64,000 nt of DNA from a virus. Location of the stretch: IMG/VR virus record IMGVR_UViG_3300042305_001561, positions 1 through 64,000 of that record; one strand, given 5' to 3'. Below the pieces are notes generated by a model. It did not search any database and was not told the origin of the DNA. It saw only the letters and a list, made by a program, of their open reading frames with translations. The translations under genes were made by a program, and so were the position numbers. How positions within the stretch are numbered: position 1 is the stretch's first letter; each line of letters opens with the position of its first letter. This document shows, one piece after another, positions 9,086-36,545 of this stretch.

Positions 9086-10165
9086 ATGCAAAAATCACAA
9101 TATCTATCATATCAGGACGTTTTTCTAAAGCCGCACTACTCAAAGTATCATTCTCGTTCAGACGCAGATGTTTCTGTAGAATTTGGACCAAAGAAGTTCA
9201 AGTTGCCTGTTACTCCCGCTAATATGAAATGCACCATTGATGCCAAGACGGCAAAATGGATGAGTGAAAATGACTATTTTTATGTGATGCATCGCTTCAA
9301 TATCAGCCATCACGACACTCCTAATACTGATAATATCAACTTCATTGAGAAAGCCAATGAAGAGAACTGGAAGAACATCAGCATCAGCCTTGGCGTAAAG
9401 CAGGAAGATATGGATCTGGTTGAGCATTGTATCAAAAAGAATCTTCGTATTGATTATATCACAATTGATATTGCTCACGCACACAGCGTGCGAATGAAGG
9501 AAATGCTTGCTTATATTATGCGTATGTATCGCAGCAGCATTTGCTCGGTTGAAAAGCCTTTTATCATCGCGGGAAATGTGGCAACACCCGCAGCGGTTGT
9601 TGATCTTGAAAACTGGGGAGCAGACAGCGTGAAGGTTGGTATTGCTCAAGGCGATGCCTGCACTACATATGGTCAGACTGGATTTGGTATGCCTATGTTT
9701 ACTTGTATGCTGGAATGTTCTGCTGCTGCCAGAAAGCCATTGGTCGCTGATGGTGGAATTAGAATGAATGGAGATATTGCCAAGGCTATTCGTGCTGGCG
9801 GTCAGATGGTTATGGTAGGCAGTGTGTTTGCTGCTTGCGTTGATTCTCCCGCCGAAACTATCCAGAAGGTTGTAAGAATGAACGAACTTAAAGAAACAAT
9901 GAAGGTCAGCCCAAAAGGAGTTCTTGAACAAAGTCTGGATGAAATGCTTGCCAAGAAAAAGTATAAGCAGTATTACGGCTCTGCTTCTGCCATCAACAAA
10001 GGCTCAAATACTCACGTCGAGGGAAGATTGGTTACGCTCGAATGTAATGGATTTACATACGAACAGAAACTCAAGGAAATGACCGAAAGCCTACAAAGCA
10101 GTATGTCATATGCCGGTGGAGACATTCGCCTCGCTGATTGGGGTATTATCTACCACAAACACTAA
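9086..10165 (+). CDS. IMP dehydrogenase / GMP reductase family enzyme
   Basis: 359 aa, the length of GMP reductase rather than of CBS-containing IMPDH. TIM-barrel core with the catalytic Cys loop KVGIAQGDACTTYGQTG, the phosphate-binding VADGGIRMNGDIAKAI and the GG.MVMVGSVFA segment. The pathway is guanine/adenine nucleotide interconversion (GMP to IMP by GuaC, or IMP to XMP by GuaB), steering host purines for phage DNA synthesis. IMPDH loops usually read GSICTT, so direction should be tested. It has its own promoter with operator-like repeats and a strong terminator at 10224. Confidence 0.88.
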   Translation: MQKSQYLSYQDVFLKPHYSKYHSRSDADVSVEFGPKKFKLPVTPANMKCTIDAKTAKWMSENDYFYVMHRFNISHHDTPNTDNINFIEKANEENWKNISISLGVKQEDMDLVEHCIKKNLRIDYITIDIAHAHSVRMKEMLAYIMRMYRSSICSVEKPFIIAGNVATPAAVVDLENWGADSVKVGIAQGDACTTYGQTGFGMPMFTCMLECSAAARKPLVADGGIRMNGDIAKAIRAGGQMVMVGSVFAACVDSPAETIQKVVRMNELKETMKVSPKGVLEQSLDEMLAKKKYKQYYGSASAINKGSNTHVEGRLVTLECNGFTYEQKLKEMTESLQSSMSYAGGDIRLADWGIIYHKH

Positions 10166-11204: not shown

Positions 11205-11980
11205 AAAATTTTAATATACACTAACTATCAAGTCTGTGTGTGTCAAACTCATAATAGATGGGCAATTTTTAAAGTATTTTCGGTGAATGGACCGTTATCG
11301 TGCACCATTATAGGATTTGACTCTATAATAAATTTTTCATTTCCTTGTTTAACAAGATTTTTGTTTTCTAACGTGCTAAAAAACAGTTTGTTTGATTGAT
11401 CTACTTTAATATCATTAGTATACAAATACTCCAATGTCCAATGCCCTTGGTCGTCACATGAAGTTCTGTTCAACTTTATTATTTCTTCCATATGATTTAT
11501 AATTTTATCCGTATATCCGAAATATATTCCCGAGTTTAAAAAGAAACTGTCAGAAAATTTTTCTTTAGTTTCATATAAATTTCTTTCCTGTATAGGTGGC
11601 CACATCCACTTTTCTGCACAAAAAACTATATTACAGTTGTACGATTTGAATATATCAACTATGTCATTCGGTTCTCTGTAAAAATTTGTATCCTTGGCGT
11701 CAGCAAATAATATGTACTCATATTTTCCCAAAAAATGTTCTTTGTAATATTCTATATTTTTTACTACTTTGTAATAATATAATTTTTCGGCCAAAGATAA
11801 CTCTCTGCGTGACTCGTCAAAATATCTAATTATATGAATATCATTTTCATCAAAATACTTTCTAGCATTATTGTAAAAACAAGGAATATAACTGGCCAGA
11901 TAGTCAAATAATGTTGTTACTAAAGCTATGTTTTTCATAAAATTTTAATATACACTAACTACCAAGTCTGTGTGTGTCAA
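11197..11980. repeat. 50-bp direct repeat flanking a glycosyltransferase gene
   Basis: Copies at 11197-11246 and 11931-11980 match at 49 of 50 positions. Each covers a start codon with its upstream region and the last codons of a gene (THTDL-V/I-VSVY). The left copy retains a remnant of the 3' end of the 102-aa gene. The glycosyltransferase gene lies exactly between them, so it looks like an inserted or duplicated cassette of 734 bp. Confidence 0.9.
11249..11938 (-). CDS. PLOD-type glycosyltransferase
   Basis: 229 aa. The pattern YILFADAKDTNF (metal-binding DxxD region), LNSGIYFGYTDKI, CDDQGHWTLEYL and the late HDNGP resembles the GT domain of procollagen lysyl glycosyltransferases and their viral homologues. 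It should transfer a sugar from a nucleotide donor; the acceptor is unknown. The gene is bounded by the 50-bp direct repeat, so it seems to have entered the operon separately from its neighbours. Confidence 0.75.
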   Translation of the reverse strand: MKNIALVTTLFDYLASYIPCFYNNARKYFDENDIHIIRYFDESRRELSLAEKLYYYKVVKNIEYYKEHFLGKYEYILFADAKDTNFYREPNDIVDIFKSYNCNIVFCAEKWMWPPIQERNLYETKEKFSDSFFLNSGIYFGYTDKIINHMEEIIKLNRTSCDDQGHWTLEYLYTNDIKVDQSNKLFFSTLENKNLVKQGNEKFIIESNPIMVHDNGPFTENTLKIAHLL

Positions 11981-12253
11981 TCCGTAATCGCCTTTCCAGC
12001 CTTCTTCACTCAACCCAAATATTATATGCTCTTCAGTTCCTTCCACTCTATATATCACCATATTTGGATGTTCTTCCGATGTTACTTTCTTGTATTTTAC
12101 AAACTTGGCTATTTCTGGTTCTAGTAGGAACTCATCAAACAACTTAGTGATCTGCTCCAACGGAGTTTTTCTTACAATAACAACTCCACGACCATTTCCG
12201 CCAAGGCCACGAACATAATCGACTACAAATATAAAAAGATTTCTAGGGTTCAT
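11945..12253 (-). CDS. Hypothetical protein in glycan operon
   Basis: 102 aa, not recognised; beta-rich with a Gly-rich start (VRGLGGNGRGVVIVRK). It ends THTDLVVSVY, and a copy of that end lies 734 bp downstream in front of the dUTPase gene, so originally this gene probably sat next to dut. Confidence 0.65.
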   Translation of the reverse strand: MNPRNLFIFVVDYVRGLGGNGRGVVIVRKTPLEQITKLFDEFLLEPEIAKFVKYKKVTSEEHPNMVIYRVEGTEEHIIFGLSEEGWKGDYGLTHTDLVVSVY

Positions 12254-12254
12254 A

Positions 12255-13466
12255 TTATACCTTTATAAGTGTTTTGCTTAAATCTTTTACAACCTTTGTT
12301 TTAAGCTTAAATATTCCAAGTTCAAAGTCCGAGTTATTTTCTACACCATCTTCCGAAAGAATGTCTGTTATTTTCATGAGTATACCCGCATTACTATTAC
12401 CGTCTTTCATAAACTCATCTTGGCTGAAATAAAGTAATATGTCGTTATTTACTTCTTTAATATAACCGTGATTGAGTATACGCTTCCGGAGATCAATCTT
12501 TGTGGTTTGCTGTTCTTTTTCTATATATCTTTCAGCACAACCCATATTGTCTACAAAGATATTCGTGGCCCAAGGTTCAACAAAGTGTAGAAAATCTTCT
12601 GTTATAACATTTGTTAGTACAAATCCAATATTATACACAGGATGCTTTATTGGATGATGGTTTTCATCAAATGCCATCCAATGATGCCATTTTCTAATAT
12701 AGTTTCTACGTGCTCTGTTCTGATAGAACTTGAACATATCATCATCTTTACCTACTCCATTCTTGGCCCAACTTCTGTGTCCTCTGCTGATCCAATGCCA
12801 GCACAAGCTATCTCTGCTTTGTATAAGCTTATATCCAGCAAGATGAAAACGTAGAAACAAGTCCGCATCTTCTTCCGGGTATGGAGCAAAACTTTTAGCA
12901 TCGTGACCGCCAATAGCCAAGAAATCATCTTTGCCTATCATCCAAGGAGCAAATATCCCGTTTGTTGTGACATCTTTTCTATCTTTTTGTTCTTGTTCAA
13001 CAAATGCATCAAATTCGTTTTTCTTGAATTCGTGAAACTCTATACCAAAAGGTTTTAGTATCTTCTCTTTTCCCGGTGGATATATCCCTTCCGGTTCAAT
13101 TCGTGTAGCACACACCACCGTTTTTTCTTTATAATGCTTGAGCATATTCTCAAGATAGTTTTTTCCACAAATCATGTCGCTATGGAAAATAGTAACAAGT
13201 GGGGTTTTTGCCATCTTTATTCCTAGATCATATGTTATTGTATGTCCGAGAATATTTCCCGTGGTGTTCTTCCAACCGCGAAGATTGTTATCTAAATTTA
13301 TTTGAGCGTCCAGATAATCAGCACTCCCGTCTGTACTACCATCATCCAATATAATAATTTCGTTGTTCGGATAATATTCCCGAATACTTCGGTATGCCAT
13401 CAATGTATAATTTAATGTATTATACGATGGTATTATGATTGAAATGTCTTTTGTAGTATATTTCAT
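12255..13466 (-). CDS. Family 2 glycosyltransferase with C-terminal extension
   Basis: 403 aa. GT-A fold of family 2: ISIIIPSYN at the start, IILDDGSTDGS (UDP-binding Asp), FHSDM as DxD-like motif and PEEDADLFLRF as the ED catalytic region. Residues ~280-403 form an extra domain of unknown role. It forms part of the leftward glycan operon and ends just before the 102-aa gene (1 nt). Overlaps the preceding small gene by ATGA. Confidence 0.9.
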   Translation of the reverse strand: MKYTTKDISIIIPSYNTLNYTLMAYRSIREYYPNNEIIILDDGSTDGSADYLDAQINLDNNLRGWKNTTGNILGHTITYDLGIKMAKTPLVTIFHSDMICGKNYLENMLKHYKEKTVVCATRIEPEGIYPPGKEKILKPFGIEFHEFKKNEFDAFVEQEQKDRKDVTTNGIFAPWMIGKDDFLAIGGHDAKSFAPYPEEDADLFLRFHLAGYKLIQSRDSLCWHWISRGHRSWAKNGVGKDDDMFKFYQNRARRNYIRKWHHWMAFDENHHPIKHPVYNIGFVLTNVITEDFLHFVEPWATNIFVDNMGCAERYIEKEQQTTKIDLRKRILNHGYIKEVNNDILLYFSQDEFMKDGNSNAGILMKITDILSEDGVENNSDFELGIFKLKTKVVKDLSKTLIKV

Positions 13467-13648
13467 GTTTTTCCGTGTTCTATACCAACTACATCAAGTA
13501 GTTGTTGTTCTTTTTCAGTCATTTCGTTGTATACTCTATACAACTCTTTTCGCGTCTTGTTAGCAAGCAATCCGTCCTTCTCGCCTTCATCAATGCAGCG
13601 TTGCAGTTTATAATACAACTCAAAATATTTTTTAGCAGCTTCTGTCAT
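13463..13648 (-). CDS. Small helical protein, MTEAAKKY leader copy 1
   Basis: 61 aa, helical and charged. Its first eight residues and the DNA around the start (about 25 bp) are shared with the next gene upstream, although the remainder of the two proteins differs. Coupled by ATGA overlaps on both sides. Function unknown. Confidence 0.65.
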   Translation of the reverse strand: MTEAAKKYFELYYKLQRCIDEGEKDGLLANKTRKELYRVYNEMTEKEQQLLDVVGIEHGKT

Positions 13649-13941
13649 ATTTTTTCATTTACTATAGTTGCGTCAAATTCTTCAATATAGCACCATTCAC
13701 CATCCCACCGTTCTTCTCCAACCGCATAACCAATGTTCTGTTCGCCAACATTATCTCCACACACCCGAACTCCTCTAACAAATAGACCTGCCTCCTTTAT
13801 TGCCGTTTGCCATTGCTCCAATGTAATGCGATACAAATTATTCGGCGGATTAGAATAATAATCATATACCTCAGTTCCTTCTTTGAACCAAGTATCATGT
13901 TTGGCAATCAATTTTACATATTTTTTAGCAGCCTCTGTCAT
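13645..13941 (-). CDS. Small protein, MTEAAKKY leader copy 2
   Basis: 98 aa. Begins MTEAAKKYVKLIAKHDTWFK, then a beta-rich part with two Cys and several Trp (EERWDGEWCYIEEFD). Shares its leader with the following gene, suggesting a local duplication. Overlaps the upstream glycosyltransferase end by 17 nt. Function unknown. Confidence 0.65.
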   Translation of the reverse strand: MTEAAKKYVKLIAKHDTWFKEGTEVYDYYSNPPNNLYRITLEQWQTAIKEAGLFVRGVRVCGDNVGEQNIGYAVGEERWDGEWCYIEEFDATIVNEKI

Positions 13942-14827
13942 ATAATTCCGGATTGTTATTATAACGGGTTCGCATTTGTTCTGAAACTTTTATAAAACCA
14001 ACTTCATCATATGATGGCGGTTCTCCCCATAATGTCAACCAAGTTTTAAAGTTTTTCTGTTCGCTCAACTTTTGTCTATCGGATGTACCAACCAGTTTGT
14101 CGTGTTGTCCAAGGAAATGACTGCTACGTGCACCAAAGTGCCATACAAGTGCTTTACCAGATACAACAAAATCGTATCCTTTTAGTTGCATAAGCACACT
14201 TTGCATATGATCCTCAAAACTTGACGGGGCGAATCTTTCGTCGTTGGGTATAAAATGCTTTGTTCGCATCATATATGATACGCCTTCAACTTTTCTAAAG
14301 TCGGGAGCGTTGGACGATTTTACAAACTCATCGGCCCAATATAAAAATTCTTCTTTTAAGAAATCGTGATGATATACACCAAATCCGCCATTTACTGGAG
14401 CAAATGCTGTTCCTAGCCTATCTTGATTGTTAAATATGTTGGGCTCAAGACGCCAAGCACAACCGACTATTTTCCTGTCAGTAGATGATACAATGCCATA
14501 CAAAGGTTTGTCGTAATGGCGACTGATGTACATATCACTATGTATAAGACTAAAGAATTCAGTCTGCACTCGTTTGATTGCTTCATTGACTCCGCCGCCG
14601 ATTCCTTTTGGGTTTTCATTTTGTTCGTAAATAGTTTCTATATCTTTTTGTTCTAATAACCAATCTCGTGTTTCAGTATCATTTTCTGTATAAACAATGA
14701 TTGGTTGGTTCTTGTAATAAGCATTTTCTCTTATAGATTCAACCGCCAACTTCAAATATGGAAGCGATTTATAGCTATTGATTATCCAAGTATACTTGGC
14801 ATCGGCTTGATTTTCATTCATATTCAT
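13925..14827 (-). CDS. GT-A type glycosyltransferase
   Basis: 300 aa. Start YTWIINSYKSLPYLKLAVES and the FSLIHSDMYI segment (metal-binding region) give a family-2-like fold, with SSFEDHMQSVLMQLKGYDFV as the acceptor/catalytic region. Acceptor unknown. Start overlaps the previous gene's stop. Confidence 0.78.
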   Translation of the reverse strand: MNMNENQADAKYTWIINSYKSLPYLKLAVESIRENAYYKNQPIIVYTENDTETRDWLLEQKDIETIYEQNENPKGIGGGVNEAIKRVQTEFFSLIHSDMYISRHYDKPLYGIVSSTDRKIVGCAWRLEPNIFNNQDRLGTAFAPVNGGFGVYHHDFLKEEFLYWADEFVKSSNAPDFRKVEGVSYMMRTKHFIPNDERFAPSSFEDHMQSVLMQLKGYDFVVSGKALVWHFGARSSHFLGQHDKLVGTSDRQKLSEQKNFKTWLTLWGEPPSYDEVGFIKVSEQMRTRYNNNPELYDRGC

Positions 14828-15590
14828 ACGTTTCCGCTTTTTTTCTCAAGTCTAGATAATCTTGCATCAAATTATTCTTTTTGAAAAACTTATACTGTCC
14901 CTCTTCCGCTCTACGACAATATGTTGGAATATCAAGACCAGCAACTCCTTTTTTTATAGTAACTGAGTTATGATGTAAGATACAGCATCTATCAACAATA
15001 CCAAGCTTGTATCCTTTTTTCTTGGCTACCAACGCAAAATAAAAACAAACTCCCCAACCATACATCAGATCAGAATCTATCTCTTTTACTTCTTCCAACA
15101 TTCTGCGTGAAATCAACGGAGTTTGAAAGTCGATATAATCGACCTGCCTGATGCCATTTGCATTCCAATTGTGCATGCTTTTCCAATGGCACTGTTGATT
15201 CGGTTCTATGTTGTAAATGGAGGGAGATACAATGTCATACTTTATTTCTAGACTTCCCCACTTTCCGGCGAATATCTCCCCGAACATTTCCTCTCTTAGT
15301 GTTCTTACGTGATTGTATGGATGAATCGTAAGATCGTTATTGGAAAATATCATACTGTCATATTGCGGATTTTCCAACACATACTGCATTCCTGCATTGA
15401 ATCCTCCTCCCATATATACATTATTTTCTAGTTCAAAACTGCTGTATTTGCTTTTTCCTTCGAGAGAAGACCCATTATCTAACACAAACAAGTCATAATC
15501 ATTTCTTTCATATGGCTTGAGAGATTCATACAGCATATCTGTATAATCTGGTAAGTTATGATTTAATATAAAAAATGCAGTTTTACCCAT
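14814..15590 (-). CDS. Family 2 glycosyltransferase
   Basis: 258 aa. FFILNHNLPDYTDMLYES, LFVLDNGS, GGGFNAGMQYVL and IFSNNDLTI are the typical rhamnosyltransferase-like GT2 motifs. I start it at the ATG at 15590 because GGAGG stands about 10 nt before it, inside the end of the upstream gene; a start five codons further upstream lacks that site. Part of the glycan operon. Confidence 0.88.
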   Translation of the reverse strand: MGKTAFFILNHNLPDYTDMLYESLKPYERNDYDLFVLDNGSSLEGKSKYSSFELENNVYMGGGFNAGMQYVLENPQYDSMIFSNNDLTIHPYNHVRTLREEMFGEIFAGKWGSLEIKYDIVSPSIYNIEPNQQCHWKSMHNWNANGIRQVDYIDFQTPLISRRMLEEVKEIDSDLMYGWGVCFYFALVAKKKGYKLGIVDRCCILHHNSVTIKKGVAGLDIPTYCRRAEEGQYKFFKKNNLMQDYLDLRKKAETYEYE

Positions 15591-16008
15591 AACTGGTTCC
15601 TCCATTGAATATTTTCATTTTGATACTTTTACCAGACATCTCGGCGGGTTCTATAAAAAACTTCTTGTCTGGTTGCGTGATGCTAAAAAATAGTTCAAGT
15701 TCTTCTTCATCGTCCGCAAACATCATAAATGATTCATCTGTGCCACTTTCTCTGCACTTGAACAGGTTGTACTTCGTAGTAGCCACCGTAGTATATCCTT
15801 CTCTGTGTTTCATTGCTTCGGATATAATCATAAATTCGGCTGCGATGATTGCCGCGACTTGTATGGTTGTTACAATATTAGTACGCCAAGTATCAGCCAA
15901 TATGGCGTCTTTTATATAGAATAAAGACATAACCATTAGTGGCAGACCAATGATGGAAAATAAAACCATCAAATAAAAATACAAACTTTTCTTTGGTTTA
16001 GAAGTCAT
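15583..16008 (-). CDS. Two-helix membrane protein
   Basis: 141 aa. Two hydrophobic helices near the N-terminus (YFYLMVLFSIIGLPLMVMSL and TNIVTTIQVAAIIAAEFMII), then an acidic soluble part (FADDEEELELFF). Not recognised. It is the first gene after an intergenic promoter (16020-16047), so it begins a sub-operon of the glycan cluster. I use the ATG at 16008; an upstream TTG would lie in the promoter. Confidence 0.7.
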   Translation of the reverse strand: MTSKPKKSLYFYLMVLFSIIGLPLMVMSLFYIKDAILADTWRTNIVTTIQVAAIIAAEFMIISEAMKHREGYTTVATTKYNLFKCRESGTDESFMMFADDEEELELFFSITQPDKKFFIEPAEMSGKSIKMKIFNGGTSYG

Positions 16009-16019
16009 ATAATCTTGCA

Positions 16020-16047
16020 ATCATAGCTAATTATGTCATATTGTCAA
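16020..16047 (-). promoter_or_regulatory. Sigma70-like promoter inside the glycan cluster
   Basis: Minus strand TTGACA, 16-bp spacer, TATGAT; the predicted start is only a few bases before the ATG at 16008. It would let the distal half of the cluster (towards dut) be expressed separately. Confidence 0.65.
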
Positions 16048-16056
16048 TCTATAGTA

Positions 16057-16935
16057 TCATACAGATTTTATTATATCTATGATTTGTTGAGCACGAGTTT
16101 CTGCACGATGATGTACATTTACTTTACTGTATATTCTTTCTGCCAAAGTTTCACGAACATATTCATTATTTAGCAAATACTCTATTTGCTCGACTGCTTC
16201 CGTTGGATTGGAATAATACATTATGTCTTTTCCATCTACAAACAGGTCATATATACCTGTAGCGGCTGATATGCGATTTGTAACTACAGCAAGCTTACAT
16301 CCGCCAGCTTCAAACAACCGTCGAGTGATTTCGTCATATCTGGCATACTGAAACGCAACTGTGCCAGAATTATAAAATGATGTATTTTCCTGCGGTGGTA
16401 TTTTTTTATTGACGAATTTATCTCCAAGTGAAGATTGAATATAATTTATTCCCGGCCTATCTCCGCAAGTTGTGACACAGACATTTTTTCTTGGTATTTC
16501 TTCTTTATATTTGAATAAAAATTCATCTCCCCAATGATTCAACCAACTCACATGGTTAAGACCCATCTCCTTATATTTTTGAAAACATCTAAAATCTGGA
16601 GTAAATGCCGCATCAACATATTTAATTCTCTCAAAAGCTTGACCAAAAGTCTGTGGTTCGTCTCCAAGCTCTATTATTATTTTTCCATTATAACACGTTC
16701 TTATTTTTTTTATCTGATTATCCAGTGAATTGGAAGTCCAAGGCCAAAAAACACTTATGAATTCATATTTTGCTATGTTTGAATACAATCTATCCAAATT
16801 GCAATTCGCCGCATCAAACTTATATATATCTATGCTGTGTCCCAATCGCTTGAAGGCAAATGAAAGTCCGAGAGGACAATTCCAGTAATCTTCCGGCCCA
16901 CTGTCATCTCCGTGCCATAACATTGCTATGTTCAT
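16057..16935 (-). CDS. GT-B glycosyltransferase, CgeB/group 1_2 type
   Basis: 292 aa. The C-terminal half (ARYDEITRRLFEAGGCKLAV ... IMYYSNPTEAVEQIEYLL) is the conserved nucleotide-sugar binding part of CgeB-like glycosyltransferases. The N-terminal half is weaker, as is usual for the acceptor domain. The ATG overlaps the SDR gene stop (ATGA). Confidence 0.8.
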   Translation of the reverse strand: MNIAMLWHGDDSGPEDYWNCPLGLSFAFKRLGHSIDIYKFDAANCNLDRLYSNIAKYEFISVFWPWTSNSLDNQIKKIRTCYNGKIIIELGDEPQTFGQAFERIKYVDAAFTPDFRCFQKYKEMGLNHVSWLNHWGDEFLFKYKEEIPRKNVCVTTCGDRPGINYIQSSLGDKFVNKKIPPQENTSFYNSGTVAFQYARYDEITRRLFEAGGCKLAVVTNRISAATGIYDLFVDGKDIMYYSNPTEAVEQIEYLLNNEYVRETLAERIYSKVNVHHRAETRAQQIIDIIKSV

Positions 16936-17756
16936 AGTTTTTCAAGTATTTTATCTACCGCTTGAAATATAGTGTATTTTTGACGAAAGCCAAGATTTCT
17001 TATCTTTTCACAATCCATGAAGAAGTTCGGTGCTTGAACTATTTGATGAAACTCTGGCACATCTACGTATGTTATTTTACTCGTTGATCCGGTTTTTTTG
17101 ATTACATAATCAATGATATCTATGAGTTTAATGCTTTCTTCTGCGCCAATGTTATATATTTCATTAAATTTTCCACTATGCGTTGCCAAGTTTATAGCAG
17201 CACATACATCTTCAACGTGCATGAAATTTCTGTAATTGTCTCCTTTGTATATGCTTATTGGCTCGTTTCTAACAACGTTTCCAATGAGATATTCAAGTGC
17301 ATTCTTTTTCTTTCCTGCACCAACATCGCCACCAATTACATTGCACAAACGTAATATTCTATAATTTCTATGGAATGTACGGCAAAATGACTCTGTAAGA
17401 TCCTCTGCGGTTTTTTTTGTGATTGAATAAAACCCCTTTGGATTGCACGGGTCGCCTTCTTTGGCTGGACGATATTTGGTATATCCCTCGCCATATACAA
17501 ACCAGCTACTTACGAAATTGAATGTACCTTGAACGTTTGGCAATACATCCATTAGCTTATTCAGATTGGTGTTGATGTCTTTATGAAGATCATCAAACAC
17601 ATGATAGTTGTGAGTTGTGCTGATAAGATATAGCACATCTTTCATATTCTCGGACCAATTTTCGTCGCGAGGCATTATTATGCTTTTTTGAGGATATAGT
17701 TTGGCAAAATTACTGCCAACAAATCCAGATCCGCCAAATATTGTTAGTTCGTCCAT
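16932..17756 (-). CDS. NAD(P)-dependent nucleotide-sugar SDR
   Basis: 274 aa. Extended SDR: dinucleotide loop GGSGFVG, active-site Ser in VSSWFVYGE, YSITKK (YxxxK) and NFMHVEDVCAA typical of nucleotide-sugar epimerases/reductases. Lying directly after an RfbH-type dehydrase, it could be the C4 reductase step of a CDP-3,6-dideoxyhexose pathway (as RfbJ/RfbS are in Salmonella); this is inference from context, since SDRs look alike. Overlaps the dehydrase gene by 13 nt. Confidence 0.85.
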   Translation of the reverse strand: MDELTIFGGSGFVGSNFAKLYPQKSIIMPRDENWSENMKDVLYLISTTHNYHVFDDLHKDINTNLNKLMDVLPNVQGTFNFVSSWFVYGEGYTKYRPAKEGDPCNPKGFYSITKKTAEDLTESFCRTFHRNYRILRLCNVIGGDVGAGKKKNALEYLIGNVVRNEPISIYKGDNYRNFMHVEDVCAAINLATHSGKFNEIYNIGAEESIKLIDIIDYVIKKTGSTSKITYVDVPEFHQIVQAPNFFMDCEKIRNLGFRQKYTIFQAVDKILEKL

Positions 17757-19054
17757 GTTGATAATGCAGTTTCAATATGATTTAGATTGTCCGAAGATAT
17801 TGTTGGAGCACAGCCGACGAAGAATACGAGATCAAGAACTTTATTTGATTCTGGATATTTCTTATAATCATCGAGATGCTTGTATCCATTATGTACGAGC
17901 AAGTTTCCAGCAAAATAGTTTCTGGTCTGCACACCGTTCTTTTCCAAGAACGCAACAAGCGTTTCCTTTTGCTTTTTATCTCTACAAATAATAGGCACAC
18001 CGAAAGGAACCCAATCTGTTTCAGCAAATGTGTTTGGAAAATTCAAACCATCAACATACTTCTTCAATGCGGATTGTATCGCGTCCTTGTTAGATTGTCT
18101 TGTCTTACAGATATAATCAAGTTTCTTCAACTGCTCTAGACCTATGGCAGCTTGTAGGTCCAGTGGCTTCAAATTCCAGCCAATTCTATTGAATACATAT
18201 TTGTGGTCGATAATAAGTTCTGGGAACTCTGGTAGCCAGTTTGAAAATCTCTTATTACACGAACCATTGCACAACAAGTTTGCTGCCCCCACGCAATAAC
18301 AATCTCTGCCCCAAGTACCAAAGCTTCTGGCCAAATCAACAATTTCTTGTATGTCCGAAGACACCATTCCGCCTTCAAGAGTTGTTATTTCGTGTGCTGG
18401 ATAAAAAGAACAACTGGATACTATAGCATATTCGTTTAGGTATTTTCCACGCCATTTTGACCCAAGAGAATCGCAATTGTCCAGCAAGAGTTTCAGGTTA
18501 TGTTTTTTGGTAATAGCAAGCATTTCGTCCATATCTGGAGGATTACCCAACACTGGGCTAAGAAATACTGCCTTGGTTTTTTCAGTTATCTTTTCTTCAA
18601 TCTTTACCAAATCAAAATTCAACGTTGACCATTCAATGTCTATAAACACTGGCTTTAGATTATTATGTACAATTGCAGACACGGTAGTTGGAAATCCTAC
18701 CGCAGAAACGATGATCTGATCACCATCTTTCCATCCAAAATATTCCTTGCACGCAGCAATCAAAAGCAAATTGGCACTCGATCCGCTATTGCAAAAGAAC
18801 GAGAATTTATTATCAATGTGTCGTCCGAACTCTCGCTCAAATCTTGCACAAGTTTCTCCGGAAGAAGACCACTTTCCGAATAATAGTGCTTCTATGGCAG
18901 CTACCAGTTCGTTATTATCAAAGTACGGACCTGAATAGTATACCTTCTTCTTATCTTTTGCCACAATATTGTGAGCAAACTTTGGCACAAATCCATATTT
19001 GGATGTCATACTTTCTATGAATTTATAAATTTCTTCTCGTTGATTGTTTTCCAT
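17744..19054 (-). CDS. rfbH: RfbH-type CDP-4-keto-6-deoxyglucose 3-dehydrase (PLP + Fe-S)
   Basis: 436 aa, the size of RfbH/E1. DegT/DnrJ aminotransferase fold, but the PLP-lysine position reads SFYPAHEITTLEGG: His instead of Lys, the hallmark of the 3-dehydrase that uses PMP. The Cys-rich segment GRDCYC...CNGSC matches the extra loop that holds the [2Fe-2S] cluster in E1. It removes the C3 hydroxyl of CDP-4-keto-6-deoxyglucose, giving 3,6-dideoxyhexose precursors. No ddhA/B or E3 reductase gene lies in the window; host enzymes or genes outside it would be needed. Confidence 0.85.
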   Translation of the reverse strand: MENNQREEIYKFIESMTSKYGFVPKFAHNIVAKDKKKVYYSGPYFDNNELVAAIEALLFGKWSSSGETCARFEREFGRHIDNKFSFFCNSGSSANLLLIAACKEYFGWKDGDQIIVSAVGFPTTVSAIVHNNLKPVFIDIEWSTLNFDLVKIEEKITEKTKAVFLSPVLGNPPDMDEMLAITKKHNLKLLLDNCDSLGSKWRGKYLNEYAIVSSCSFYPAHEITTLEGGMVSSDIQEIVDLARSFGTWGRDCYCVGAANLLCNGSCNKRFSNWLPEFPELIIDHKYVFNRIGWNLKPLDLQAAIGLEQLKKLDYICKTRQSNKDAIQSALKKYVDGLNFPNTFAETDWVPFGVPIICRDKKQKETLVAFLEKNGVQTRNYFAGNLLVHNGYKHLDDYKKYPESNKVLDLVFFVGCAPTISSDNLNHIETALSTWTN

Positions 19055-19059
19055 AAATT

Positions 19060-19638
19060 TTATTTTTTTATTGCCGTTGTGTTTAACCCTTGCGGATCTC
19101 CTACGTTATATCCCATACTTCCTAAAAACAGAATAAGGTCAGTATATCTTTGTTCTTTTCTGTGTACCCCGTCGATGTGCATAGATTCAAATTTAATACA
19201 TTTAATATTACACTTTCCAAAGTCTATGCTTTTTATTATTTCATAATCATATCCTTCTGCGTCGATAACTAGAAAATCCAAGTTTCTAATATCATATTTA
19301 TCAACGATATTTGAAATTGTCAAACAATTAACGCTAATTGATCTTATCAATTTATCTTCAACGCCGTGATCGGTCAAGTGCTGTTTTTTCAAAGAACTTA
19401 CTTGGTAATTGCTTTCGTTTATATAATAAAATGTCTGCTCTTTTATGTCGGGGTTATTGGTTATTGCTATATTTTCTATATATACGTTTTTTATTTCGGC
19501 GTATCTATTTTGTAGTGCGGGAATACAATATGGTATTGGTTCTATCAACACTGCTTTACTTATTTTATCCCGATTTGAAGATATTAGTTCATAAACCTCA
19601 TCATCTCCATCATTCGCTCCTATTTGAATTATATTCAT
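19060..19638 (-). CDS. FkbM-family methyltransferase
   Basis: 192 aa. IIQIGANDGDDEVYELI is the SAM-binding loop, followed by VLIEPIPYCIPALQNRY, and FLVIDAEGYDYEIIKSIDF is the signature DxEGxE/D..L of FkbM methyltransferases, which usually O-methylate sugars. The start at 19638 overlaps the previous stop as ATGA; the ten residues upstream are not needed. Confidence 0.88.
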   Translation of the reverse strand: MNIIQIGANDGDDEVYELISSNRDKISKAVLIEPIPYCIPALQNRYAEIKNVYIENIAITNNPDIKEQTFYYINESNYQVSSLKKQHLTDHGVEDKLIRSISVNCLTISNIVDKYDIRNLDFLVIDAEGYDYEIIKSIDFGKCNIKCIKFESMHIDGVHRKEQRYTDLILFLGSMGYNVGDPQGLNTTAIKK

Positions 19639-20351
19639 ACTAATGATTTTTCTAAAATATGATTCCAATCTTTAAACGGACTTAGCCACGCAGTTTCTCC
19701 GTGTGTGGAATATCCTGGCATGCTGGATACTAGGAGCTTTCCATTAGCCTTGAGTTCCAAAAACATTCTATAATCGTCTGGATGTTTTCCGGAGACCCAT
19801 TTGTTTATAATAGAAAAATCTCGTTTTATGGTTTGCACTTTGGCCGCGTGAGTCATCGTGGTTGCTTCACAAGTCCTCCAATACGAATTAATAGATCTAA
19901 AAACGTATTCGGGTATTATTCTGTCCGGCGTTGCTTCTTTGTCTGGATGAGCATACAACGTGACATAATCAACTTCTGCCCCCATCAAGTTGAATCCTTC
20001 TTCTAGTATTTTTTTAGAGTCAATGTCGTGGATATAGTCTCCTTCAACAAAATAAACAATTTCGTCGTCAGAGAAATTTTCCATCGCATATTGCAACGCA
20101 TACTTGTAAGAACCTGCGTTTCCATTGAGCGTGGTTATTATTTTTGGTGTACCTCCGCGACTCATTTTGTTGATGATTGTTTTAAACTTTTCAACCGTAT
20201 GTTCGTAACAATTGTCCATTATTATGGTTACTCCGTCAAAGTTTCCATTCAAAAAATTGTTACAGAAGTTAATAAAGCAGTTTTCATTATTTACCAACGG
20301 TAATTTTTGCTTATCGTATCCAAGATCACTAAATCTATATATAATTTTCAT
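19635..20351 (-). CDS. GT-A type glycosyltransferase-like protein
   Basis: 238 aa. IIYRFSDLGYDKQKLP start, IITTLNGNAGSYKYALQYA and EIVYFVEGDYIHD (DxD-like acidic motif) fit a GT-A fold that handles a nucleotide sugar. The family is not certain. ATG at 20351 overlaps the methyltransferase stop. Confidence 0.7.
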   Translation of the reverse strand: MKIIYRFSDLGYDKQKLPLVNNENCFINFCNNFLNGNFDGVTIIMDNCYEHTVEKFKTIINKMSRGGTPKIITTLNGNAGSYKYALQYAMENFSDDEIVYFVEGDYIHDIDSKKILEEGFNLMGAEVDYVTLYAHPDKEATPDRIIPEYVFRSINSYWRTCEATTMTHAAKVQTIKRDFSIINKWVSGKHPDDYRMFLELKANGKLLVSSMPGYSTHGETAWLSPFKDWNHILEKSLV

Positions 20352-21040
20352 ATTTTTTGTATGGTGAACGCCCAAATTACGTTCGGTGTAAATGCGCTAT
20401 ACAAGTTATAATTTTTTGGGTCATTTATAGTGTTGTCCGATTCATACCATTCTGCAAAGTTAGCAGAATAATAAAATTTTTCATCTGTAATAGAATATCC
20501 TCTGCTCACAACTTCATTTTTTAATATACTCTGACGCCTATGGTCATAAGACCTAAGAAATGGTTCGCCAGTTTTTTCATAATTCATATATGGCCCAGCG
20601 GGTAATGTAATTATAAACTTAGACCTTTCGTCTTTAAGTAATTTGCAACCTTTTAATATTCCTTTTATGTCGTGATTCCACCGACATACATCTTCTTCAT
20701 ATACGCCGCTAGCCATCTTATTGCCAGAAAACCAAAACCCAAAATGTTCAAATACAGATACGGCTACAATATAATCATACTTCAAGTTTTCATCATATTG
20801 TATAAAATCCGCCTCTACGTGCTTCCATTCCTTGCCATTCAAATCAAGCCAAGAATCTTTTTGTATTGAAACAATGTCCGTGGTTGTTACGTTTCTTGCG
20901 CCCAGTCCGAATAACGTTTCGCTCACGCCTTCTCCTCCGTGTCTTTCTCCTACAATCAAGATGGATTTTTTTATATCATCTATCTGATCAATGAAGTATG
21001 GAACTTCTACTATTTTTGTACCTGATAATTTTATGTTCAT
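20348..21040 (-). CDS. Class I SAM methyltransferase-like protein
   Basis: 230 aa. SILIVGERHGGEGVSETLFG (SAM loop), VTTTDI (acidic beta2), ADFIQYDENLKYDYIVAVSVFEHFG (motifs II/III). Substrate unknown; the operon suggests a sugar or glycolipid. Coupled by ATGA on both sides. Confidence 0.75.
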   Translation of the reverse strand: MNIKLSGTKIVEVPYFIDQIDDIKKSILIVGERHGGEGVSETLFGLGARNVTTTDIVSIQKDSWLDLNGKEWKHVEADFIQYDENLKYDYIVAVSVFEHFGFWFSGNKMASGVYEEDVCRWNHDIKGILKGCKLLKDERSKFIITLPAGPYMNYEKTGEPFLRSYDHRRQSILKNEVVSRGYSITDEKFYYSANFAEWYESDNTINDPKNYNLYSAFTPNVIWAFTIQKI

Positions 21041-21798
21041 GTAATTGAAATATTTATGTATGGATCCACTGTATTATACTCATATCCAAGTACAACATCT
21101 TTTCCGCGAAATGGTGCAGAAAATTCCTCGTGAATTGCCGACACCCAATCTCGATCTTTACTGTGTCCCCAACAAGTTACTTTTTTTATCATAGCTTCTT
21201 TGGATCTTACCCAGGAATAATGATGTATGAAAGGTTTTCCACTATAAATTACATTTCTCGCTCGTTCGTTTTTTGGAACATAATCGTAAAATGCGGAACG
21301 TTCGTTTTCGTGGAATATAAAAATATCTTCTGTAAATGTTCCTTTTTTAACCAATACTACCGAATCTTGCCATTCTTTTGCCTGATATATAACATCCCTG
21401 AAATAAAAATAATTGGCAAGCTTATAACTCGTTAATAGTTGATATTGTTGATGCGACCACCAATCCTTGAATTGATCTGGAACAATTATCTCATCAACGT
21501 CCAAAAATAAAAAATAATCTGTATCTTGCGGTGCCATAGAAATGCCGACTTTTCTTGCAGCATTATGGTGCCACCGAGAGGTTTGCGATGGAGAATATTG
21601 GAATTCAAAAAATTGAGCATTTTTATTCTCTTTAATGCCTCTATTAATAAGTTCCTTGTTTTCGGGAGTTCCGTCCAAGAAATGGTCGCAGTAAGGAACT
21701 ATTACAGAGTCTGAAAGTGCCAGTGCACTATCGATACACGGTTTCAAAAATACGTAATCGTTGCTACAGTAATTTATGATTGTGGTTATTTTTTTCAT
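21037..21798 (-). CDS. Family 2-like glycosyltransferase
   Basis: 253 aa. TTIINYCSNDYVFLKPCIDS start and YFLFLDVDEIIVPDQF, an unambiguous DxD-type motif of GT-A enzymes; a His-rich C-terminal part (GKPFIHHYSWVRSKEAM) is typical of this subfamily. Acceptor unknown. Confidence 0.82.
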   Translation of the reverse strand: MKKITTIINYCSNDYVFLKPCIDSALALSDSVIVPYCDHFLDGTPENKELINRGIKENKNAQFFEFQYSPSQTSRWHHNAARKVGISMAPQDTDYFLFLDVDEIIVPDQFKDWWSHQQYQLLTSYKLANYFYFRDVIYQAKEWQDSVVLVKKGTFTEDIFIFHENERSAFYDYVPKNERARNVIYSGKPFIHHYSWVRSKEAMIKKVTCWGHSKDRDWVSAIHEEFSAPFRGKDVVLGYEYNTVDPYINISIT

Positions 21799-22733
21799 TT
21801 TATAAAAACTTCATCAAATCGCTGAATAACATTTTGTGGAGAAAATTTGATAGAATATCTATCCCAATCAATATTATTGACATATGTTTTATTAATTTGC
21901 AATAGATAAGAAGTCAATTCGTCCGATGTTTTGTAAAGAATTCCGCGATCTCCGAGCATATCGATGTGAGCCCTCATATACCACCAATATTGTGCATCGT
22001 ATGTGAATATTGGTTTGTTGAAGGATGAAAATTCCGCAACCGCGAGTCCAAAGGTCTCTCCGTCCGAGCGACCGTGTATCATTGCATCACAAGTATTTAT
22101 AAACTTCGATTTATAATCCAAGCTTGGACTGAAAGGAAGGAATTTTGCTCTAGGATGATCAGTGAATTGTTTGGTATTTAAAAATATTGCCCATAGATCA
22201 TTTCTCTGTTGCAACGCATTAAACACACCGGACTGAGCCTCACGCACGTCGAATTGATTATATCCACCAAGTCGGCCAATAACAAAATGATTTTTTGGTA
22301 TTCCAAGTTCGTCATGAAGAGTTTGGGTTGTTTTTGGAAGATTTATTATGTGAGGAACCCATTTATCTTTTTTGAAATATTTGGCAAGCCACTCGCTTAC
22401 ACCGGCATATACGTCACCATGGGGCTCGGCCATACTAAATACACAATGGATTGCGGTCTTGCAGTTTTTTGGAAAATATTCTACGCCACCGGCGCGAGTC
22501 ATATACAATACATCTATTTTTCTTTCATCAATTATTTTTTCCAATTCACTAATATCATTATACATGGCACACTCAAATCCAGAATATCTTTCCAAAAAAA
22601 TAGATTTATTTATGTCACTGGAAATAACCACCTCATATCCAAGTATGTTTTTTAATGCGGAAGCGTAATCGTATATTACAGTACCATTTCCCCTATCGTC
22701 TAGTACATTTGCGTGCAAACATATTTTTTTCAT
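21795..22733 (-). CDS. Family 4 (GT-B) glycosyltransferase
   Basis: 312 aa. C-terminal Rossmann part with HFVIGRLGGYNQFD, and AMIHGRSDGETFGLAVAEFS is the E-x7-E motif of GT4. The N-terminal domain is short. Retaining transferase; donor unknown. Confidence 0.85.
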   Translation of the reverse strand: MKKICLHANVLDDRGNGTVIYDYASALKNILGYEVVISSDINKSIFLERYSGFECAMYNDISELEKIIDERKIDVLYMTRAGGVEYFPKNCKTAIHCVFSMAEPHGDVYAGVSEWLAKYFKKDKWVPHIINLPKTTQTLHDELGIPKNHFVIGRLGGYNQFDVREAQSGVFNALQQRNDLWAIFLNTKQFTDHPRAKFLPFSPSLDYKSKFINTCDAMIHGRSDGETFGLAVAEFSSFNKPIFTYDAQYWWYMRAHIDMLGDRGILYKTSDELTSYLLQINKTYVNNIDWDRYSIKFSPQNVIQRFDEVFIK

Positions 22734-23425
22734 AAATATTTTTTAATTTTGGAGTAATTGTGCTCGTGCCAACATCCCCACAAACAAGGTCTCCTTGGCC
22801 ACCAAGACTCATTATCAAACCTTTTAACGACCGCATATGAGACGTTATGTTTTTCTAGCTCCGTTTGTAAAATCAATTCGCACCATGGATTGACCATATT
22901 GCCATCTACACAGACGTTTGGTTGATTGTATTCGGGTAAAACGTAATTTGCAAACACATTCGTGTTGAGTAATTTTGGGCGAATAACAAATATATCCGTA
23001 CTAATCATCCGATTCTGTGGAAAGTTTTTATAAAGAACTGGGTCTGGTGGGTTGCACATAGAAAATACAAATGCGTGGTCCATATTACTCACCATCACCT
23101 GAAGAAGTTTATTTTCATCTACTACAAAAACGTCACAGTGCAGATGGAGAACGTTGTCATATTGTTTCCATTCATCATATAAATCGCTGAGGGTTTGGTG
23201 TAATCCTTGAACATATCCCGCATTCTTTTCCGTATGGATAAGCTTTTTGTTTGCATTGGGAAATAAATCAAAGCAATTACGAAGATACTTTTGATCTATG
23301 TTTTTATTATTGTTGTGTAATATTAAATCAAATTGCCATAAAAAATTTGTTTTTTTGAGAAGGGTTGGCGCAATCATGAACTCTTCGGTCTGATTATGTG
23401 ATGTAATTAAAATTAAATTTTTCAT
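22730..23425 (-). CDS. GT-A type glycosyltransferase-like protein
   Basis: 231 aa. LILITSHNQTEEFMIAPTLL start and VLHLHCDVFVVDENKL (DxD-like) suggest a GT-A fold; ends with a Trp/Cys-rich tail (ESWWPRRPCLWGCWHEHNY). I start at the ATG at 23425; the longer open frame covers the end of the neighbouring gene. Function assigned from motif and context only. Confidence 0.65.
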   Translation of the reverse strand: MKNLILITSHNQTEEFMIAPTLLKKTNFLWQFDLILHNNNKNIDQKYLRNCFDLFPNANKKLIHTEKNAGYVQGLHQTLSDLYDEWKQYDNVLHLHCDVFVVDENKLLQVMVSNMDHAFVFSMCNPPDPVLYKNFPQNRMISTDIFVIRPKLLNTNVFANYVLPEYNQPNVCVDGNMVNPWCELILQTELEKHNVSYAVVKRFDNESWWPRRPCLWGCWHEHNYSKIKKYL

Positions 23426-23427
23426 TT

Positions 23428-24111
23428 TTAACCTTGCCCCATGTTGGCCTGTTTCGACCAATTTTGGTTGTAAAACTTGTTTTGAGAAAGCTGTCTCTGG
23501 ATCGTTTTGTCGTGTATAATTGCCCATTCCACTTCTTTAGGCAATGTTGCAACATATTCTGCACCTTCTATGGTCTCGTGCAATGGCTTCTTCCATTGAA
23601 TTTTTTGACTATTCTTATAAATACGAGATTGATAGTCCCCGTGATTCCAATTGATTATTTGTTCGTTTCCAAAATATTTTGGTAATGTGCTTAGATGCCA
23701 TCCCCACATAGCCGCATCTTGTGGAGTACATCCTCTCACAATATTGACTCTCGGCACTCTGTATAATTCGACTTGCGGATTGGACGTGATCAACTCTTGC
23801 ATATTTTGCAACAGTTCGGGCCAAAGATACTCGTCAGCATCAAGTTGGACAATATAATCGCCGACACAACGTTTTGAGCCATAGTTCTTATGCTCGGCAA
23901 AGTTCTTGTTTAATGCATGCTGAACAATAGAAAATCCATATCCTCTCGCGTTTTCTAATATATTCTTTGTATCTTCGTTGTCTGAGAAGTCGTCTAAAAT
24001 AACAACTTCGTCATTCGATGCATTAGACTTCAAGTGAGTGTTGAGTTTCTCGGTCAATTCGAGAAGTTCGCGTGTCTCGTTGTGGCAAGAAATTAAATAA
24101 CTGATTTTCAT
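23428..24111 (-). CDS. Family 2 glycosyltransferase
   Basis: 227 aa. ISYLISCHNETRELLELTEK, VVILDDFSDNEDTKNIL and GDYIVQLDADEYLWPEL (DxD) make a clear GT2 catalytic domain, similar to KdtX/WaaE-like enzymes. Next gene starts 2 nt after its stop. Confidence 0.9.
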   Translation of the reverse strand: MKISYLISCHNETRELLELTEKLNTHLKSNASNDEVVILDDFSDNEDTKNILENARGYGFSIVQHALNKNFAEHKNYGSKRCVGDYIVQLDADEYLWPELLQNMQELITSNPQVELYRVPRVNIVRGCTPQDAAMWGWHLSTLPKYFGNEQIINWNHGDYQSRIYKNSQKIQWKKPLHETIEGAEYVATLPKEVEWAIIHDKTIQRQLSQNKFYNQNWSKQANMGQG

Positions 24112-24164
24112 CTTTTTATAAAGTTAAATAAATGAGATACTAAAGTTGCTTCATATTGATATCT

Positions 24165-24299
24165 CTAAATCCAAGCGGGGTCTTTGTATCTATCCAGCCC
24201 CGCGTCTGGTTCCCATTCATTCTCTATTAATACGTGCTTTTTACGGTCGTCTCCGTAGTTCTTGAAAGAACTGTCGTTAACGTGAATGTAAAGAGCCAT
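24165..24299 (-). CDS. Small hypothetical protein, 44 aa
   Basis: Complete frame 5 nt after the GT4 gene stop: starts MALYIHVNDSSFKNYGDDRK and ends RYKDPAWI. Same strand and spacing as its neighbours support translation. Function unknown. Confidence 0.6.
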   Translation of the reverse strand: MALYIHVNDSSFKNYGDDRKKHVLIENEWEPDAGLDRYKDPAWI

Positions 24300-24304
24300 A
24301 AAGA

Positions 24305-25615
24305 TCAGGCAACAGTGGGCGCTTCAGCGGGAGTTATTTTCTTAAATTTTGGCAAAGTAATTGCAACCTTCTTCTCGAACACTGGAAGATGCTTGTCAAG
24401 GACTTCGAACAACTTATTCCCCGCTTCATCCAGATTAAACTTCTGAGAATTTTGTACGCGCAACTTTTCGGAATTTGGGACGTAATTTATGTAATTTTCA
24501 TACATGTCTTCCAATTTTTGTGCAGCAATGCTGTAGTTGGCGTTGAACCATTGACCTTCCTTCACTAGCCATTCGTTACAAGCACTTGGATGAATATTTA
24601 CCAGTGTACCAGGCAATAAATTTGAGAGATTCTCCGGTAGAAAATCTACGTGTCCACTCCAACCAGTGGTAAGAAGTGGTTTTCCACTAAGAGTCGCTTC
24701 CAATAGCGGTCTTCCAAACCCCTCGCCATGTGTAAGACTAACGTGAGCTTTCACCTTCGGATGATTATATAAACGATTCAACTCAACCGGAGTCAATTCT
24801 CCGTGTATAATATATATATTTGGGAGATTGCCAGACAGCGAAGCACGAATATCATTGATTTTCTTTAATATTTCAGCTTTATCTATCTTAGAAAAAGTTG
24901 CTCCACTTGTTTTGAGAATCAACGCTGGTGCATTTTTCTTGTTTTTAAATACTTCACTAAAGATTTTCACTAGCATTCCGACATCTTTTCTATCTGCGCC
25001 GAGATCGCCCTGAATCCAATGTCCTACGAATAGATAACAAAATGTTTCTGGAATTGCGTTTAGTGCAGAATCTATTTCTTCAGACGGTTCATTAGTTTTT
25101 TTGTAAATATTTGTATCTACGCCTTCGAACACAACTTCAATTGGTTTATTAACTTGAATCTTATCCGTGACGCCTGTTCTTTCATCTCTGCGGTCATATG
25201 CAGTTTTTACGAATACTTCCTTCGAGAAATTGGATGGAACTATGTTTAGATTCATTCTATTAAGCCCTTCTATCCATTCTGGTTTTGGTACCGTACTTTC
25301 AATACCCGCCGTTACACCTATATTGTATTTTCCTTTTGGTTGAAATTCGTTCGGAATAGATACTTGAACAAATAATTCCGGCTGCGAAGTAAGATTTGTT
25401 GTCAATATTCTACTTTTGATTTCTTTCACCATAGGACGAGTTTCGTCATCCAACATCGTATTGGGGCATACTCCCCATCGCATCGGTACGATTTTAACGT
25501 CAAACTTATCATACTTGATAATGTCAGTCGCTAATGCAAAGCAATGGTCGCCATATCCAGAGCGAGATGCTATTGGACCTTGTATGACACATACTGGTTT
25601 AATTTCGTTGCTCAT
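24305..25615 (-). CDS. Family 4 (GT-B) glycosyltransferase
   Basis: 436 aa. VIQGPIASRSGYGDHCFALA (N-terminal donor/acceptor cleft), IEVVFEGVDTNIY, LFVGHWIQG, and HVSLTHGEGFGRPLLEATLSG with the GT4 E-x7-E signature. Ends in a Pro/Lys tail. Retaining transferase of the glycan operon. Confidence 0.9.
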   Translation of the reverse strand: MSNEIKPVCVIQGPIASRSGYGDHCFALATDIIKYDKFDVKIVPMRWGVCPNTMLDDETRPMVKEIKSRILTTNLTSQPELFVQVSIPNEFQPKGKYNIGVTAGIESTVPKPEWIEGLNRMNLNIVPSNFSKEVFVKTAYDRRDERTGVTDKIQVNKPIEVVFEGVDTNIYKKTNEPSEEIDSALNAIPETFCYLFVGHWIQGDLGADRKDVGMLVKIFSEVFKNKKNAPALILKTSGATFSKIDKAEILKKINDIRASLSGNLPNIYIIHGELTPVELNRLYNHPKVKAHVSLTHGEGFGRPLLEATLSGKPLLTTGWSGHVDFLPENLSNLLPGTLVNIHPSACNEWLVKEGQWFNANYSIAAQKLEDMYENYINYVPNSEKLRVQNSQKFNLDEAGNKLFEVLDKHLPVFEKKVAITLPKFKKITPAEAPTVA

Positions 25616-25634
25616 TTATATAACCTTTTGTTTG

Positions 25635-25826
25635 TTAGGGTGCTGTGCCTGGTGTGTTTTGACCTTCTTGCTCTTGAATAATAGCTTCCATCTCGGATTT
25701 AACATCGTTGATGCGATCCTTGAAGTCAGTCATAACAACTCGCTTTTCCATTTCAATTTCACGAAGTTGCTTGGCAAGTTCGTAGATTTTTGTCTTTGCT
25801 TCTTCCTTAGTTAATGCTTTAGCCAT
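25635..25826 (-). CDS. Small coiled-coil protein
   Basis: 63 aa, starts MAKALTKEEAKTKIYELAKQ; helical with heptads, Pro/Thr tail. Lies between two GT4 genes on the same strand, 8 nt from the upstream one, so it could be a partner or scaffold (inference). Confidence 0.65.
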   Translation of the reverse strand: MAKALTKEEAKTKIYELAKQLREIEMEKRVVMTDFKDRINDVKSEMEAIIQEQEGQNTPGTAP

Positions 25827-25834
25827 AATATTTC

Positions 25835-36164: not shown

Positions 36165-36545
36165 TGGTGGACGTGAGGGGAGTTGAACCCCTGTGCTGTA
36201 TAATATAACTACAACCATATACATGCTTATCTCTTATAATCCGACTAAGTTTGGTAGAGCACCACTTAGAAGTTGAGGACTCGTGTTTCTCGCTGTTGTT
36301 ACGACCCTCGTCCTTACAACAGCAAGCAGATGGTCGAGCGTTTTATTCTATATATCTGCGTCAATAGATAAAACGGGTAGCAACTTAGGCTACAGCAACT
36401 TCGCTCTTACGGCTTACGCTTAGGAACGATGTCTTAGCAAGATTTCTCTTAGCATTTATTTTTTCCAACGGGTATTATACAGAGGCATTAGACTCTGTGC
36501 ATGCGGACTGCATCTACACTATATAGTAGAATCCAGAACACGCCC
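36165..36545 (-). ncRNA. ssrA: tmRNA (transfer-messenger RNA)
   Basis: 381 nt. Acceptor stem GGGCGTG (36539-36545) pairs with CACGTCC (36169-36175), then A and encoded CCA. The T arm is GGGGTTCAACTCCCC, and the 5' part has TTCTGGATTC as in bacterial tmRNA. The tag frame (36385-36453) starts with GCT after AAATAAAT and codes 22 residues, starting AKRNLAKT and ending KSEVAVA, with its TAA in the loop of a GTAGC/GCTAC hairpin. Non-permuted, one-piece form. It would rescue ribosomes stalled on broken messages; tmRNA in a phage is rare. Confidence 0.9.

Follow-up and report, generated by a model that had tools for sequence, protein, structure and literature searches.

The stretch of viral DNA analysed here (the window, 64,000 nucleotides) belongs to a virus record of 64,894 bases, which is itself a fragment. 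It was found to carry phage replication and T4-like genes, including those for a clamp-loader A subunit, RNA ligases, a Hoc-like protein, exonucleases and HNH endonucleases, together with many tRNAs and one tmRNA. The tRNAs lie within 42.7–56.7 kb (17 by ARAGORN, 19 by Rfam), and the tmRNA gene at 36165–36545 (minus strand) is complete, with an Rfam score of 91 bits. An IMP dehydrogenase/GMP reductase-like phage gene at 9086–10165 (plus strand) showed 42% identity to gp120 of Bacillus phage G. For positions 1–25000, no DNA-level relatives were found among named phages, and searches with the RNA-ligase and RnlA-like proteins returned scattered distant phages that pointed to no host. Positions 16932–19054 consist of exactly two overlapping minus-strand open reading frames, which sit within a glycosyltransferase-rich minus-strand gene run of about 11945–27313 that also contains an FkbM-type methyltransferase gene (19060–19668, minus strand).

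The first gene of the pair (17744–19054, minus strand) encodes a 436-residue protein which homology, alignment, tree and predicted fold assigned as an RfbH/E1-like, PMP- and [2Fe-2S]-type nucleotide-sugar 3-dehydratase of a separate clade. It matched Pfam DegT at 2e-70, and the RfbH model search that a sequence-only reading of this DNA had suggested gave a match to NCBIfam NF011936 at 4e-105 and 352 bits, under the curated equivalog cut-off of 423 bits. The best PDB match was the E1 dehydrase (3bcx, 1e-72), with ColD (6e-43) and all aminotransferases far behind. The window motif FYPAHEIT aligned onto FYPAHHIT of E1. In the residue-numbered alignment, His221 (codon 18392–18394, minus strand), which replaces the PLP lysine of aminotransferases, corresponded to H220 of E1, and Cys194 (codon 18473–18475, minus strand) corresponded to the Fe-S ligand C193. 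Cys252, Cys254 and Cys266, located in codons 252–266 (18257–18301, minus strand), corresponded to C251, C253 and C261, with a 4-residue insertion giving C-X11-C in place of C-X7-C. The histidine and the four cysteines were kept in all 48 aligned proteins (the window protein and its viral relatives), and were invariant in a 22-row alignment to which bacterial and canonical RfbH proteins had been added. In the literature, E1 and SpnQ are defined by this histidine and by four cysteines that bind a [2Fe-2S] cluster; ColD has no such cluster (PMC8987622). The predicted monomer had a mean pLDDT of 84 and E1 as its best fold match (E 3.5e-35); the loop with the Fe-S cysteines (residues 248–265) had a pLDDT below 50, so that the model decides nothing on cluster geometry. 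Judged by these alignments, the protein is a homologue of the E1/RfbH 3-dehydrases. The histidine in place of the PLP lysine and the cysteine cluster, both claimed in the sequence-only reading, were thus borne out, and the alignment showed neither a catalytic lysine at the site nor a missing Fe-S cysteine, either of which would have counted against the claim.

Because the DegT fold is present, and SpnQ is capable of transamination without a reductase (PMC8987622), an ordinary aminotransferase was considered, as was a degenerate gene; both appear very improbable. The former was rejected on the absence of the PLP lysine, since histidine occupies the DegT/ArnB site in every clade homologue examined and all four Fe-S cysteines are retained without exception. 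The latter was rejected on dN/dS. Values of 0.016–0.055 were obtained for both genes of the pair against the two closest relatives with unsaturated dS (L005 and L009), indicating purifying selection, and therefore that the pair has been maintained.

Scanning IMG/VR with this single protein yielded 48 loci; further relatives were found in Synechococcus phages and in an uncultured phage of 642 kb. Near-full-length clade members were present at 47 loci from IMG/VR and phage records and in some dozen bacteria. Cellular relatives with 47–57% identity were few (Polyangiaceae, Nitrosomonadaceae, Bacteriovoracales, Prochlorococcus, Rhodospirillales and Nitrospirales), the remainder being at 39% or less; the clade gene was carried by 4 of 350 sampled genomes of the Prochlorococcus family and by 6 of 340 of the Bdellovibrionota phylum. 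A match in Salmonella phage S.Kent 1-2-1 (33% identity, 2.6 kb record) was set aside as probable host DNA. In the tree, phage and bacterial members grouped together and apart from canonical RfbH, with an SH-aLRT support of 98 and of 100 for the next branch inward. The tree therefore places the window protein in a sister clade of RfbH, outside the RfbH clade itself. Compared with E1/AscC/RfbH (CDP-4-keto-6-deoxyglucose 3-dehydrase; 3bcx, NF011936), it shares the fold, the lysine-to-histidine replacement and the four Fe-S cysteine positions at ∼31–34% identity, but carries four additional residues between cysteines three and four and has a fixed SDR partner. The score below the RfbH cut-off was ascribed to membership of this separate clade with its insertion. 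The RfbH/E1 label given earlier was accordingly retained for the enzyme class, a Fe-S-type 3-dehydrase with histidine for lysine, and given up for the family, which is the sister clade. The clade signature is C-X-C-X11-C, that of E1 being C-X-C-X7-C. Loop length alone is not diagnostic, because longer loops were also seen in two small outlying groups on the canonical side (L067/L069 and L075/L106), which comprise RfbH-like proteins of Chloroflexota and Spirochaetota outside the phage clade. Another viral group (L045–L047) has a more RfbH-like 3-dehydratase, 43% identical to that of the window; it is encoded close to Gmd- and Fcl-like genes and falls between the clades in the tree.

The second gene (16932–17756, minus strand), which overlaps the first by 13 bases, encodes a 274-residue extended-SDR nucleotide-sugar oxidoreductase, probably a C4-ketoreductase. 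The nucleotide-sugar SDR reported earlier beside the DegT-type protein was recovered here with the motifs GxxGxxG, S83, Y110 and K114 (S-YxxxK), which are conserved in phage and bacterial partners. In NDP-4,6-dehydratases the catalytic Ser/Thr is followed by Asp-Glu, as in TDEVYG. The window SDR reads SSWFVYG at this place and lacks the Asp-Glu, and it scored 92 bits against TIGR01181, whose cut-off is 365. On this score and the missing motif, the idea that the SDR as a whole is a 4,6-dehydratase was rejected. Its predicted model was confident (pLDDT 91) and resembled GalE-type epimerases and the NADPH-dependent 4-ketoreductase RMD (TM 0.84–0.86).

The pair is met again in many phages unrelated to one another, as well as in a few bacteria. 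In most phages the SDR gene follows directly after the RfbH-like gene, usually with an overlap of 4–14 bases. In bacteria, a gene of the same SDR family stands ahead of it, with an overlap of 10–16 bases and 40–49% identity to the window SDR. The opposite order with the same partner implies that the two enzymes are probably coupled in function, rather than neighbours through shared ancestry of one arrangement. The pair was 93–97% identical to those of L005 and L009, whereas the adjoining glycosyltransferases were 39–90% identical or absent in the same phages; within a glycan cluster that changes fast, the pair forms a stable core. Where the usual SDR was missing, a different SDR type followed the RfbH-like gene in L002, L038, L040 and L051, as if the final reduction could be swapped to change the product. 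No adjacent ketoreductase could be identified in L025, L041 and L042. The 642-kb uncultured phage (LR756502) additionally encodes a second, ColD-sized DegT protein adjacent to a GDP-fucose-synthase-like SDR (L002:3456-5555), a gene pair that is possibly a second dideoxy- or amino-sugar route. At L042:7046-10786 the RfbH-like gene is followed by genes for a sugar formyltransferase and a DegT aminotransferase, and the product there may be an N-formylated amino-dideoxy sugar.

We consider it probable that the two genes form a self-contained sugar-deoxygenation module, a C3-dehydratase with a C4-ketoreductase, that converts a host NDP-4-keto-6-deoxyhexose, perhaps dTDP-linked, to an NDP-3,6-dideoxyhexose for use by the surrounding glycosyltransferases. 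The host would make the NDP-4-keto-6-deoxyhexose, and the RfbH-like enzyme, with PMP and its [2Fe-2S] cluster, would remove the C3 hydroxyl. The overlapping SDR would then reduce the 4-keto group, and one or more neighbouring phage glycosyltransferases would attach the dideoxyhexose to a glycan. We infer the activities, their order and the stereochemistry of the product, as well as the nucleotide, electron donor and acceptor discussed below.

E1 requires E3 as its reductase, and SpnQ runs on general ferredoxin or flavodoxin systems (PMC8987622). An E3-like FAD_binding_6 domain was found in none of the phage records searched, that of the window being a fragment, and some were present in all bacterial genomes searched; a phage-borne E3 was therefore rejected. 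Ferredoxin (Fer2) was detected among phage records only in Synechococcus phages. Because no E3 is encoded, it is likely that electrons for the C3 reduction come from the host, via a carrier of the ferredoxin or flavodoxin type, by analogy with SpnQ. By its published description (PMC8987622), SpnQ, the dTDP-4-keto-2,6-dideoxyglucose 3-dehydrase, resembles the proposed enzyme in its Fe-S type; the two may also share a dTDP-linked substrate and independence of E3, but SpnQ makes a 2,3,6-trideoxy antibiotic sugar. The Streptomyces RfbH-type loci in the tree fell inside the canonical clade.

Known 3,6-dideoxyhexoses are immunodominant and relevant to phages; abequose, paratose, tyvelose and ascarylose are made by CDP routes and colitose by a GDP route. 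In the classical CDP route, which the earlier label RfbH/E1 implied, the host would supply CDP-4-keto-6-deoxyglucose and the phage would complete abequose, paratose or ascarylose for the O-antigen, whereby superinfection would be blocked. We regard this as unlikely. E1 and RfbH are the closest characterized enzymes, and phage LPS gene clusters have been proposed to alter host surfaces (PMC2984593). Against this, the window protein lies outside the RfbH clade, and the gene neighbourhoods differ: rfbF/rfbG occurred within 8 kb of 42 of 62 canonical rfbH genes versus 0 of 39 clade loci (Fisher 2e-13), and in a stricter set with full 4-kb flanks near 27 of 39 versus 0 of 28 (1e-9), P values that are optimistic as the loci compared are not fully independent. 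The search for ddhA/B in the phage that the sequence-only reading had recommended was equally negative, as a CDP-glucose 4,6-dehydratase above cut-off was found in none of the ∼20 phage records searched, and a phage-borne CDP pathway was rejected on this ground. Some bacteria bearing the module do have this enzyme, encoded elsewhere in the genome in 4 of 13; it was absent from the other 9. Several of the genomes are incomplete MAGs or single cells. Among 14 control genomes, 4,6-dehydratases over cut-off comprised RmlB in 10, Gmd in 6 and the CDP enzyme in 1, so that few hosts could feed a CDP route.

It was observed that rmlA and/or rmlB lay within 8 kb of 5 of 13 bacterial and 3 of 26 phage clade loci, and in Bacteriovoracales they are adjacent divergent genes. 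RmlB exceeded its curated cut-off in Bacteriovoracales, Polyangiaceae, Synechococcus phages and phage L019. Of the five bacterial loci with rml linkage, however, three are closely related, and rml genes are common. The 297-kb record L023/G008, whose protein is 81% identical, contained none of the three kinds of 4,6-dehydratase, only weak matches to the SDR of the pair itself; the substrate should therefore come from the host. Because rfbF/rfbG are absent near the clade and rmlA/rmlB flank several loci, the nucleotide is more likely dTDP, drawn from the host RmlB pool, than CDP.

Four phage records encode a Gmd-type enzyme, either in place of RmlB or in addition to it; its gene shares the cluster in L019, L021 and L022 and is present in the record of L043. 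These occurrences would fit a pair acting on GDP-4-keto-6-deoxymannose to give a colitose-like or other GDP-dideoxy sugar, and the two-enzyme unit of 3-dehydratase and SDR reductase recalls ColD/ColC of GDP-colitose synthesis. Gmd, however, also serves fucose and perosamine routes, and was found within 8 kb of no bacterial clade locus. Known GDP 3-dehydrases such as ColD have no Fe-S cluster (PMC8987622), whereas the window protein retains all four cysteines, as does its clade, and is closer to E1 by sequence and fold. A GDP substrate is therefore quite unlikely, though possible. Returning to dTDP, we tentatively suggest an unrecognized dTDP-linked 3,6-dideoxyhexose route, a two-gene plug-in of phages and some bacteria that would branch off the near-universal RmlB product and use host ferredoxin, with neither CDP-glucose genes nor E3, the phages swapping glycosyltransferases and keeping the pair.

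Concerning the acceptor, the many transferases claimed around the pair were confirmed. On the minus strand, a PF13524 glycosyltransferase (16057–16935; Pfam 4.6e-21) comes next after the pair in close relatives, its position being conserved in L005, L009, L013, L014 and L023, and is the candidate dideoxyhexosyl transferase. Family 2 glycosyltransferases are encoded at 12255–13466, 13925–14827 and 23428–24111, and a group 1 (GT4-type) enzyme at 25835–27313. Glycosyltransferase-like proteins are encoded at 14814–15605 (DUF707 just under cut-off), 21795–22733 (weak GT1 match) and 24305–25615 (GT1 under cut-off), all on the same strand. Outside the main cluster, a further glycosyltransferase-like gene (45298–46290, minus strand) matched phrog_2170. 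Only one ORF in the cluster is membrane-like (15583–16020, minus strand); it encodes a 145-residue protein with two TM-like segments and no Pfam match, which is fast-evolving and occupies the same place in relatives, with 40–97% identity. Phage serotype conversion of the Gtr type employs a GtrA flippase and a membrane-anchored GtrB, and both features are missing from the window cluster: no GtrA was found, and the enzyme at 12255–13466 matched the GtrB-like phrog_841 over its GT2 domain only and has no TM-like segment.

No flippase, polymerase or lipid-carrier transferase was recognized in the cluster of the window. Together with the many soluble glycosyltransferases and the Hoc-like head decoration gene, this raises a serious possibility, a little short of even, that the dideoxy sugar is placed on virion proteins or DNA of the phage itself instead of on a host glycan. 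Such a target bears on the acceptor alone and does not conflict with the pathway proposed above. On the other side, core-LPS glycosyltransferases are likewise soluble or peripheral, and the window showed no gene dedicated to protein or DNA glycosylation. The membrane steps may be supplied by the host, or the virion may be the target. The host O-antigen and blocking of superinfection, as first suggested, are possible; for the LPS genes of cyanophages, a role in changing the surface against superinfection has been put forward (PMC2984593).

RfbH-like genes are already annotated in phages, and rfbH/ddhC/ascC has been listed among marine viral AMGs (PMC10653327); the separate two-gene module is new as a variant. 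In the open-access literature, no description of the clade, the SDR pairing, the inverted order or the separation from CDP genes was found, and the 3-dehydratase name together with phage gave no match. If the proposal is true, a compact pair branching from a host pool explains how two phage genes suffice to impose a rare sugar, and the long-standing guess on phage LPS-like clusters, namely which sugar is made and where it is placed, becomes testable. Synechococcus phages S-H68 and RB11-B (MK016663, PV261925) encode an RfbH-like protein with 52% identity and an SDR of the same family in the cluster. They differ from the window in that the SDR gene is a few genes off, next to genes for RmlB and an RmlC-like protein, and in also encoding a ferredoxin. 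The MK016663 gene is already annotated as CDP-4-dehydro-6-deoxy-D-glucose 3-dehydratase, and the proposed route would correct automatic annotation as CDP-4-dehydro-6-deoxyglucose 3-dehydratase or aminotransferase.
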